Origin: Spartobacteria bacterium | GTDB taxonomy: Bacteria; Verrucomicrobiota; Verrucomicrobiia; Chthoniobacterales; UBA6821 | Length of the DNA: 35,736 bases | Direction: 5' to 3' | Assembly (NCBI GenBank): GCA_947482345.1 | Contig: CANKJN010000011.1 | Coordinates: forward strand, 1-35,736 | Part shown: positions 7,546 through 28,879 of the stretch, in pieces | How the letters are laid out: every line of letters starts with the position of its first letter | Numbering within the stretch: position 1 is the first letter of the stretch | Notes under the pieces: model-generated | Told to the model about the DNA's origin: nothing | Seen by the model: only the letters and a program-made list of their open reading frames with translations | Database searches by the model: none | Translations under genes and position numbers: made by a program

Positions 7546-7877
7546 GAGCTCACGTTAAGCTCCGCACACGCTCCGAGAAAGATCCTGCCGATAATGAATC
7601 TGCTTAGATCGGGTGGAGAGGGGGGGGAGAGGGCTGGGGAGAATGAAAAAGGCGCCTCGCTGTTTGAAGTGGGTTGATTGAAAGATGAAGTTTTCACGCA
7701 ACGGGCGCAAAGGTCGCCAAGGTAGGATCAAAGAGTAGTGCCCGATGAAACAGAAAAGAGAAACAACTCTGTTTTTCTGCAAGTTCTTGAAAAGCGATCC
7801 TTGAAAAACTCAGCGACGTGGAAGCCCTCTTTGCGATCGTTGCGTCCTTTGCGTGAAATACGCAGGGTTTAATCACC
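7546..7877. other. Spacer with inverted repeat element, no gene
   Basis: A 332-base spacer between two minus-strand genes. Short frames here have no family resemblance. It contains a G-run-rich segment at about 7615-7645, a GAAAGATGAAG word at 7680-7690, and an inverted-repeat unit at 7691-7858 that is listed separately. Confidence 0.6.
7691..7858. repeat. Inverted repeat unit with TTTCACGCAA ends
   Basis: TTTCACGCAA at 7692-7701 is matched by its complement TTGCGTGAAA at 7849-7858, about 170 bases overall. Just inside both ends are degenerate copies of words such as GGGCGCAAAGG and, on the other strand, AGGACGCAACG. A further hairpin lies in the middle, CAGAAAAGAG at 7751-7760 against CTCT plus TTTTCTG at 7767-7779. 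No open frame inside has recognisable similarity. It could be a small non-autonomous element or a remnant. The right end lies 19 bases from the stop of the GH16 gene. Confidence 0.5.
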
Positions 7878-8738
7878 TCACTGCACACCACGTGCAGTCA
7901 GTGGCTCGATGTCGACCCAGTCGATCAGCATGGTCTGGGATCCGGTCCAGTCGGGAGTTCCGGCCCAGGGCATCCGTCTCATGCCGATGATGACCTGAGA
8001 CGGGTAGTCGGGAACAACATCATCGATGACCTTCTGCAGTACCCCGTCGATCAGGAATCGCACCGACTTCGGCCTCCACTCGATCGTGTAGGTATGGAAG
8101 CAGCCGTCGCGGTGAGAGACCTTCCTTCCCTTGGCATCGAGGATCGGTGTGCGGATGCTCCTTGAGGGTGAGAGTCTCCCCGGTGAATCTCCGGATCGAT
8201 CCGTTGCATTGGCCCATGTATTGAGTCTCACGTCGGTCCATCCGCCATCGGTGCCGGTCGCATGGCCGGCTTCAGGTGACTGGGTGTCATGCGCGACGAT
8301 CTCAATGTCGATCTCATCGACATGCGATTTCTCCCGATAGGTGAAGAGGAGGCAGGCGACACCAGGGATGGCGGCATTCCTGGCACGGATGCCGATCCGG
8401 TGATTGCTTCCGACAGGCCCAAGGGAGAGTGTCTGGAAGGGCCATGGGTTGTTCTTTCCAGGAGGTTTCTGCAGTGCGCGTGATGTGACGGTGAGATGGG
8501 CGTATCCGTCACCGGGAATGATGTTCTTCCATCCCTCGACCGGGGTGAGCTCGTCGGTATATCCCCATCTGATCCCGTCGCGTGTGGGAGGCTTTCCCGG
8601 TAATTCAAACCCCTCGAAGTATTCCCCTGCCATGAGTGATGTGGAACTCATAAGGAGAAGGATAAGTGCCTGCGTAAAAAAATCTCCCGCAGAGGCGCAG
8701 AGGCGCGGAGGGTTGAGGAAATTATTCTTCAAGTCCAT
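7878..8738 (-). CDS. Secreted GH16 family glycoside hydrolase
   Basis: A 286-residue concanavalin-like glucanase. The GH16 catalytic signature EIDIE is at 142-146 (nucleophile E142, D144, acid/base E146). The typical FHTYTIEWRPKSVRFLIDG segment follows nearer the C-terminus, as in beta-glucanases and related enzymes. The exact polysaccharide cannot be read from sequence. A hydrophobic stretch at 23-37 ending SLMAGEY looks like the core of a signal peptide. The N-terminal 22 residues are unusual: about 11 of them (around 9-19) are encoded by a copy of the intergenic repeat at 8684-8710. The ATG at 8738 lies inside the end of the GxxExxY gene (17-base overlap), so coupling is possible. The alternative start at M30 would destroy the signal peptide, so I keep 8738 with caution. 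Confidence 0.82.
   Translation of the reverse strand: MDLKNNFLNPPRLCASAGDFFTQALILLLMSSTSLMAGEYFEGFELPGKPPTRDGIRWGYTDELTPVEGWKNIIPGDGYAHLTVTSRALQKPPGKNNPWPFQTLSLGPVGSNHRIGIRARNAAIPGVACLLFTYREKSHVDEIDIEIVAHDTQSPEAGHATGTDGGWTDVRLNTWANATDRSGDSPGRLSPSRSIRTPILDAKGRKVSHRDGCFHTYTIEWRPKSVRFLIDGVLQKVIDDVVPDYPSQVIIGMRRMPWAGTPDWTGSQTMLIDWVDIEPLTARGVQ
8684..8710 (+). repeat. GCAGAGGCGC-type repeat, copy 1
   Basis: A 27-base unit beginning CTCCCGCAGAGGCGCAGAG and ending GCGCGGAG. It shares its first 19 bases with the copy at 9141 and is nearly identical to the reverse complement of 9246-9272. It lies inside the reading frame of the GH16 gene, encoding part of its N-terminus, and directly downstream of the GxxExxY stop. 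Confidence 0.8.
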
Positions 8739-9105
8739 TCACATATCGGGTGATGCCGCTCTTCAGAACGTCTTCCCCGAAGTTCAGGAGGTATCCAAGC
8801 TTTAATCCCGTCAACTTCAGGTAGGTCTGTACTTGCTTCTTATGGGCGGGGGCGATCCTTTCGACTGACTTGAGTTCTAGGAGAACCTTTTGCTCCACGA
8901 TGATGTCGGCTCGAAACCCTTCATCAAAGGTGACCCCTTTGAAGATGATCTGAACAGGGACCTGCCTTTCCACCTTTAAGCCTAGATTGAGTAACTCACG
9001 GGCTAGGACGACTTCGTAAACAGTTTCCAGAAGTCCCGGGCCGAGTTCTCGATGAACGCCAATCGCTGATTCAATAATTTTTGTCCCAATCTCATTTTCT
9101 TTCAT
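8722..9105 (-). CDS. GxxExxY protein (PD-(D/E)XK-like fold)
   Basis: A 127-residue protein with the name-giving motif G24-L-L-E27-T-V-Y30. A nuclease-like core follows: FRADIIV (D67), then LLELKS (E77-x-K79), consistent with the PD-(D/E)XK superfamily to which this family is assigned. The length is typical. Its function is not established. Members are scattered, highly variable in copy number, and often sit in intergenic-like locations with the repeats seen here. No good Shine-Dalgarno precedes the ATG. Repeat copies lie on both sides: 12 bases after its stop, and about 35 and 140 bases before its start. The setting suggests a mobile or duplicated unit rather than a stable operon member. Confidence 0.88.
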   Translation of the reverse strand: MKENEIGTKIIESAIGVHRELGPGLLETVYEVVLARELLNLGLKVERQVPVQIIFKGVTFDEGFRADIIVEQKVLLELKSVERIAPAHKKQVQTYLKLTGLKLGYLLNFGEDVLKSGITRYVNGLEE

Positions 9106-9140
9106 AGTTCTTTGAGTTGTCCGGTGAAATGAAAGTTAAA

Positions 9141-9160
9141 CTCCCGCAGAGGCGCAGAGA
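9141..9160 (+). repeat. GCAGAGGCGC-type repeat, copy 2
   Basis: Matches the first 19 bases of copy 1 (CTCCCGCAGAGGCGCAGAG) in the same orientation, then diverges. It lies 36 bases upstream of the GxxExxY start codon. Confidence 0.75.
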
Positions 9161-9193
9161 TGGGTAAGGAATGCATGGTTATGAAGAGGGAGA

Positions 9194-9213
9194 TATATTC
9201 TAAATAGAATATA
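9194..9213. repeat. AT-rich inverted repeat TATATTCT/AGAATATA
   Basis: A perfect 8-base inverted repeat with a 4-base AAAT spacer, between repeat copies 2 and 3 and upstream of the GxxExxY gene. It could be a protein-binding site or part of the repeat unit. There is no T-run typical of a terminator. Confidence 0.4.
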
Positions 9214-9245
9214 CCCGCCATTATCAGGCTTGCTCATAATATCTT

Positions 9246-9272
9246 CTCCGCGCCTCAGCGCCTCTGCGGGAG
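9246..9272 (-). repeat. GCAGAGGCGC-type repeat, copy 3 (inverted)
   Basis: The reverse complement of this 27-base segment matches copy 1 with one difference (GCTGAGG for GCAGAGG). It is therefore inverted relative to copies 1 and 2, so the GxxExxY gene is bracketed by oppositely oriented copies. It lies 21 bases downstream of the stop of the dehydrogenase gene. Confidence 0.8.
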
Positions 9273-9293
9273 TGTTTCTCTCTATTTCTTGGA

Positions 9294-28494: not shown

Positions 28495-28597
28495 TTGTGA
28501 ATGGGAAAAATGACAATAATCAGGAACCAAGCCGTAACGGATGCTAAGCAACGGCCGGGCACCCAAGACAGGAATGGAGACGAATGGAATATTTTTA

Positions 28598-28751
28598 ACA
28601 GGGATGAAGGGGGTAAAGGGGATTCTCAACACCAAGTCCTTGTTCGCATGGATGACCCGAGTGAGTCCAAAGCCGTCCGCACCAAGGTTCTGCCCGGCGC
28701 AAACTTCTGCCATGCCATGCATTCCATCTCCTTCATCCCTTTCATCCCTGT
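28598..28751. repeat. Inverted ACAGGGATGAAGG word repeats
   Basis: ACAGGGATGAAGGGGGTAAA at 28598-28617 is matched in inverted orientation by 28732-28751, whose complement begins ACAGGGATGAAAGGGATGAA. Each arm is itself a two-fold repeat of a GGGATGAA-like word. The interior has no recognisable gene. Confidence 0.55.
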
Positions 28752-28764
28752 GCCTAATCTTTTA

Positions 28765-28789
28765 TCTGCGTCTTGGCGCTCTGCGGGAC
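28765..28789 (-). repeat. Degenerate GCAGAGGCGC-type repeat, copy 4
   Basis: On the minus strand it begins TCCCGCAGAGCGCC and continues AAGACGCAGA, clearly related to the three copies around the GxxExxY gene but with a deletion and substitutions. No GxxExxY gene is present here. Confidence 0.55.
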
Positions 28790-28879
28790 AAATCTCATAT
28801 CCACCCATTGAAAAAAGCGAAGAACCCATTCCTGATTTCCTGAGTTCCACATTAATCAATCAGGCATTACTCTTCCCCT

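Follow-up and report, generated by a model that had tools for sequence, protein, structure and literature searches.

The general feature of GxxExxY loci is an inverted pair of short arms, each built of iterated words, whose letters differ between clades of the protein. The arms usually bracket the gene, and the word differs from one nuclease lineage to the next, so that the two in combination resemble a tiny mobile element. Our preferred reading, to which we assign a probability of about 0.6, is that each GxxExxY gene is the only gene of a mobile element and that its product, a PD-(D/E)XK nuclease, recognises the arms on either side. Of the two halves of this reading, mobility as a unit with the arms as its bounds is better supported than the idea that the protein recognises and cuts them.

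The locus from which the analysis started lies in a stretch of 35,736 nucleotides, here called the window, which is the entire contig C11 of a 2.36 Mb Spartobacteria genome in 125 contigs (the home genome). The window contains the following features.

8679..8710, + strand: left arm, with the words CGCAGAGG-CGCAGAGG-CGCGGAG and AAAATCTCC ahead of them; identified as an inverted pair with 9246-9277.
8722..9105, - strand: GxxExxY / PDDEXK_3 gene of 384 bases (127 aa), with the GPGLLETVYE motif and the D-ELK active-site residues.
9138..9159, + strand: additional arm of two words, oriented as the left arm and also found in congeners G011 and G019.
9195..9212, no strand assigned: AT-rich palindrome with 8-bp arms around a 2-bp centre, lying in the spacer that separates the second arm from the third.
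9246..9277, - strand: right arm, an inverted copy of the left arm at 8679-8710.
28601..28623, + strand: left arm of a gene-less pair of the GGGATGAAG family.
28726..28748, - strand: right arm of the gene-less GGGATGAAG-family pair.
28766..28789 (about), - strand: degenerate CGCAGAG arm, the distant fourth copy.
28829..28853, - strand: lone arm of a third word family (AATCAGGAA).

The outer arms are 32 nt long and 91% complementary, and exact copies of the 10-mer GCAGAGGCGC lie at 8689, 8697 and 9146 on the + strand and at 9258 on the - strand. A first-pass annotation had described two direct and one inverted repeat around a 384-base gene, an AT-rich 8-bp palindrome between two of the copies, and a degenerate fourth copy 19 kb off. 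The three repeats were recovered at their positions and in their orientations, as was the palindrome, whose spacer is also recognisable in congener G011; the fourth copy was found at a distance of about 20 kb, where two other word families also have arms. With one mismatch or fewer allowed, GCAGAGGCGC has 8 matches in the window against a mean of 4.08 in shuffled sequence, where 8 or more occurred in 6 of 100 shuffles, and its count in the window alone is therefore weak evidence.

The assignment of the gene to the GxxExxY family is secure. In profile searches its product scored 139.3 bits against TIGR04256 (cut-off 35) and 137.2 bits against PF13366, PDDEXK_3 (cut-off 22). The nuclease-like fold that had been proposed for it agrees with the PD-(D/E)XK residues kept across the family: in 26 diverse sequences D67, K79, Y95, N108 and F109 never vary and E77 and Q91 hardly do, and a closer set of 47 shows no variation at D67, E77, K79 and Q91. 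An AlphaFold2 model of the window protein has a mean pLDDT of 95.6. The nearest solved folds retrieved with Foldseek are Cas4 and phage-type exonucleases (4ic1, 4r5q; TM by query up to about 0.5), with nothing in the PDB at E 0.001 or better. Cas4 profiles match the protein weakly, and a sequence search of solved structures gave no credible match (best E 0.42). These nearest folds and weak profile matches are what GxxExxY proteins have in common with Cas4/RecB-like PD-(D/E)XK nucleases, from which they differ in being small and stand-alone, in having their gene between arms, and in the lack of a fold match at E 0.001. A Pfam scan of the window protein returned PDDEXK_3 only, with no match to DDE, HUH, serine or tyrosine transposases.

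To score arms, the 250 bp left of each GxxExxY match were compared with the reverse complement of the 250 bp to its right, and a score of at least 18 was counted as an inverted pair. By this test inverted arms flank 162 of 193 GxxExxY loci in total, a count that is not fully independent because some loci are orthologous copies of one site, and the remaining 31 fail. The successes were 46/58 in a first set, 48/59 in a second, and 68/76 in a named set comprising the best 80 of 580 loci found by alignment of the A2 subfamily. Off-centre windows of the same loci scored in 517/5,098 cases (47/795, 29/349 and 441/3,954, respectively), and mixed flank pairs from the first set gave an inverted match in 51/685. 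Among control genes the corresponding figures were 0/25 for ParE toxins and 1/29 for ribosomal protein S20. Loci dropped before scoring numbered 5 of 63 in the first set, 1 of 60 in the second, 4 of 80 in the named set and 1 of 30 for S20; for ParE, 26 of 30 loci were used, four short partial matches being left out, and 1 was then dropped at an edge. A stricter requirement for three-word arms on both sides was satisfied by 40/60, 44/59 and 59/76 (named, best 80 of 580) loci, the denominators reflecting a shorter-match filter that differed from that of the main test, against 16/855, 16/352 and 241/4,082 off-centre windows. The word of the window itself is a poor probe for this architecture: a search for GCAGAGGCGC within 200 bp (at most one mismatch), the enrichment check proposed with the first-pass annotation, found it at 13/63, 4/60 and 14/80 (best 80 of 580) GxxExxY loci and at 2/30 S20 loci, the literal word being too narrow.

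Arms in the flanks measure about 25-35 bp, usually carry three words spaced 8-10 bp apart, and are oriented inward with their purine-rich strand. Word recurrence was assessed in 165 of 203 loci (173 with arms, from which five loci that were duplicates or shared a site and three whose frames were poor had been removed). Three similar 6-mers, at a score of at least 14 of 18, were present in 130/165 arms and in 36/825 random stretches, a comparison somewhat favourable to the arms, since the random stretches were limited to 40 bp and the arms were unlimited; spacings of 8, 9 and 10 dominate. In the C-R-C-N-R-A-G class the outer side is T-rich and is followed by AAC or ACC. Measured between their outer ends, elements have a median length of 471 bp (interquartile range 451-509, n=102), and the distance between an arm and the profile match is about 15-23 bp.

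The identity of the word follows the protein. Arms were sorted into seven word classes by patterns that we set ourselves, and these were mapped onto an 84-protein tree built from the family searches, leaving out the named set and 13 unclassed arms (over all sets). The word class changes 11 times on this tree; free shuffles required a mean of 47.8 changes and a minimum of 43, and the minima were 32 for shuffles within host genus and 37 within host family. Word class tracks the protein tree, not the host, and gene and arms have therefore been inherited together. The window's genus holds five word classes at its different GxxExxY genes. Arm similarity was also correlated with protein identity (Mantel r 0.324; largest of 500 permutations 0.120). 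In the A2-type subfamily the C-R-C-N-R-A-G word was found in 66/73 usable named loci (best 80 of 580) across bacterial phyla, one of them on a contig named as an archaeon; as this set was drawn from an A2 alignment, the uniformity of its word describes A2 only. Among these named loci, again the best 80 of 580, the architecture is spread over many phyla. The correlation of word and protein would fit recognition of the arms by the protein, and joint descent alone could give the same correlation.

Words of the same kind are dispersed through the home genome. The 15-mer CGCAGAGGCGCAGAG has 59 matches there with at most one mismatch, against 7 for a reversed-pattern control, and these merge into 42 arms. 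Neighbouring arms within 600 bp of each other form 8 convergent pairs, one direct pair and no divergent pair. CGCAGAG arms occur at only two of the six GxxExxY matches in the genome; when flanks were read, the remaining four showed the same layout in other words, CACGAAG at L004, GGGATGAAG at both L002 and L005, and, on one side of L006 at least, an AGGAA phrase. At a score of 18 L006 failed the arm test, and L003 reached no more than 14, its CGCAGAG arms being visible all the same. CGCAGAGGCGCAGAG is present in each of the 16 genomes searched from the window's genus, with 3-168 matches, those of G008 and G013 being near control levels; six of six genomes of the sister genus have 0 matches, and only one of these has any GxxExxY match. 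Copy number of CGCAGAGGCGCAGAG was modestly higher in genomes with an intact gene of that word class (6 vs 10 genomes, one-sided p 0.028, hand classification). G010 is an exception, with the highest count (168) and the gene only as a fragment. Outside chromosomes, GxxExxY was found in 8 of 72,556 plasmid records, and tblastn gave no match in phage records.

Several other repeats touch the word arrays. The intergenic stretch 28601-28853 of the window crowds the gene-less GGGATGAAG pair, the degenerate CGCAGAG arm and the lone AATCAGGAA arm into one spot. A palindromic REP-like insert, short and of the CCGTAACG..GGCCGGGC type, lies within a CGCAGAG arm of G010 (L327), and one of the same type interrupts another arm, in G019 (L326), at a site orthologous to that in G010; similar sequence occurs near the 28.6 kb arms at about 28524-28565 of the window. 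The REP-like insert may target word repeats. At 7651-7858 the window carries a shortened copy of a high-copy repeat with IS-like outer ends (at least 13 genome copies, this one included), which encloses an inverted CGCAAAG/CGCAACG word pair. Homology of this copy ends at the outer end of its right word arm. The repeat was considered as a candidate word-arm MITE; other copies reach the outer IS-like ends, and we regard it as a separate repeat containing a word pair.

Comparisons among congeners show gene and arms acting as a unit that is present, absent or replaced at particular sites, and the earlier proposal of a small mobile unit is supported to that extent, while the word on which it had been built, GCAGAGGCGC, proved to be one of many. 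At the focal site, where a comparison of close strains had been suggested, the outcome was mixed: the gene and its three arms are common to G000, G011 and G019, the copy in G010 is decayed, and G021 and G009 have neither. Gene and three arms are alike in G011 and G019, so the focal copy has been inherited there, which counts against recent movement at this site. In G020 the focal gene has simple arms and a different left neighbour. L068 (G053) and L073 (G050), from one genus, share a stretch of 500 bp, 88% identical, that runs from the end of one arm to the end of the other; sequence outside the arms is unlike, and the two elements lie at different places.

Two further sites were genotyped. 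Between flanks 77-92% identical, the L038 site holds an element with CATGAAG arms in G010, elements with GGGATGAAG arms in G011 and G000, a gene-less CACAAAG pair in G001, two putative toxin-antitoxin-like frames beside a leftover arm in G017, and a few bases between two neighbouring frames in G012, G009 and G005. The L016 site holds a gene-less arm pair of 216-231 bp in G000, G011, G019 and G010, a remnant in G008 and G015, 9 bp in G020 and 11 bp in G009. Its interior in G010 (L375) matches that in G019 (L377) only when reversed (z 59.7, vs 2.3 forward), and the segment between the arms has therefore been inverted, or the unit has re-entered the other way round. Occupied sites thus have near-empty counterparts with precise ends, as expected of insertion sequences, in G020, G009 and G012, at a resolution coarser than a single base; these near-empty sites represent either the ancestral state or the result of loss. 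Inspection by eye of the compared sites revealed no target-site duplication; short ones could be missed, since the flanks there are 70-92% identical. A family-level search gave 41 places, 5 of them with in-frame stops and 10 with fewer than 90 profile positions covered, as expected of a decaying mobile family. Within one genome the interiors of gene-less pairs are mostly unlike, which counts against a simple copy-and-paste MITE. L387, L392 and L399 do share interiors, and were considered as a gene-less MITE; their flanks are shared too, which marks them as duplicated regions, uninformative about transposition.

A second family has the same layout with an unrelated protein. Four-helix-bundle genes (TIGR02436), a family known from rRNA intervening sequences (PMC11270868, PMC3936711), have inverted arms at 18/26 loci, compared with 39/408 off-centre windows (27 of 30 loci used, 1 dropped). 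Three iterated words were present in 17 of the 20 arms examined, with a spacing of exactly 7 in 15/20. The 7-bp period at these genes, against 8-10 bp at GxxExxY, was seen across loci L001-L006 and L094-L123. The shared layout suggests a common way of moving or of being maintained, and it makes it harder to argue that the encoded protein must in every case act as a nuclease.

In the mechanism we propose, an element of about 470 bp would carry GxxExxY as its sole gene and end in mutually inverted arms of about three iterated 8-11 bp words. The protein would bind the word arrays, those at the two ends of the element as well as gene-less ones in other parts of the genome, and may cut or nick DNA there; host repair could then move, swap, invert or lose the segment between the arms. 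Arm pairs that enclose no gene would be relics or non-autonomous copies, in which the arms stay alike and the interiors drift. That the protein recognises or cuts the arms is, on the sequence evidence presented here, a prediction.

Three other explanations were weighed against this one. The arms might belong to the host or to another system, as dispersed extragenic repeats serving as terminators, mRNA-end structures or nucleoid sites, between which GxxExxY genes merely settle. Arms in the home genome are indeed mostly gene-less (42 against six genes), a neighbouring open frame stops inside an arm at two sites, and arms persist while interiors diverge. Host ownership does not sit well with a word class that tracks the GxxExxY tree even when shuffled within genus (11 vs at least 32 changes), with up to five classes in one genus at different genes, with ParE and S20 genes in the same phylum sample lacking arms, or with one A2-type word recurring across phyla at 66/73 usable named loci (best 80 of 580), and we consider it unlikely. 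A homing-like selfish nuclease is, in our estimate, equally unlikely. It would cut gene-less word arrays and be copied in by repair, making the dispersed words targets instead of transposon ends; gene-less arms with the same word as resident genes, unlike elements at one identical site, alike arms around unlike interiors and conserved active-site residues would all be expected of it. The near-empty sites of G012, G020 and G009, however, have no word array that could have been a target, and the 500-bp L068/L073 element stops at its arms with no common flank, like a transposed unit.

The least probable of the three, and in our view a very doubtful one, is an RNA-level element resembling 23S rRNA intervening sequences, in which the arms pair in the transcript, the stem is processed, and insertion proceeds through an RNA intermediate. 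The inverted arms at 18/26 loci of the intervening-sequence protein family speak for it. Pairing in RNA would predict an excess of G-U-keeping mismatches, and a bias of this kind was sought and rejected: on the gene's strand, 338 arm mismatches keep G-U pairing and 412 are of the A-C type. Three iterated words are, moreover, superfluous for a plain stem, and both genotyped insertion sites lie between protein genes, not in rRNA.

The preferred reading, mobile single-gene elements with protein-recognised arms, can be set beside known systems. Insertion sequences have one small open frame between terminal inverted repeats, presence or absence at sites, and decayed copies. GxxExxY elements resemble them in the inverted ends around a coding region, in presence and absence, and in decayed copies; they differ in that no known transposase is matched, no target duplication was seen, and the ends diverge greatly within one genome. 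The main facts that a plain insertion-sequence model leaves unexplained are that no target duplication was recognised and that the interiors of gene-less pairs are mostly unlike. The arms of REPs are hairpins with a GTAG-type tag, and those of GxxExxY loci are iterated words, with gene-less pair interiors that are mostly not shared. RAYTs (REP-associated tyrosine transposases) are HUH/Y1 transposases, whereas GxxExxY proteins have the PD-(D/E)XK fold, and neither the Pfam scan nor the fold search identified the window protein as a Y1 HUH transposase. The parallels with REP/REPIN-RAYT systems, the subject of PMC3116915 and PMC3733652, are a single gene between inverted short repeats, the same repeats dispersed genome-wide as singles and inverted pairs, and a repeat type tied to the protein type; dispersed repeats matching those around the gene were found in the home genome and its congeners. 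Intervening sequences of 23S rRNA with an IVP/four-helix-bundle gene are likewise small single-gene inserts, and their protein family has inverted word arms at 18/26 loci. There the protein is unrelated and the word period is 7, not 8-10; GxxExxY elements, at the focal and the compared sites, stand between protein-coding frames and not in rRNA genes. In the accessible text of the open-licence PMC literature, including PMC8934634, PMC12085832, PMC3090145, PMC9756366, PMC3936711 and PMC11270868, we found no description of repeats around GxxExxY genes. A published primer upstream of a Bacteroides fragilis capsule locus, given in PMC3090145, includes a CTCTGTG word array.

If this reading is correct, a protein family annotated by no more than a motif name would supply the central gene of a mobile element that many phyla carry, and short dispersed repeats of this class would gain an owner. 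Because each nuclease clade carries its own word, hundreds of protein-target pairs would be at hand for the study of DNA reading by a compact PD-(D/E)XK protein. The parallel with the four-helix-bundle genes of 23S intervening sequences would make the long-standing question of how those genes spread testable. More tentatively, at what we would call slightly worse than even odds, the two families are examples of a wider, undescribed class of single-gene elements with iterated-word ends, in which the encoded protein reads both the word letters and their period (7 bp with the four-helix bundle, 8-10 bp with the nuclease), and these alter along with its evolution. Such a class would amount to a large natural set of proteins and their targets.
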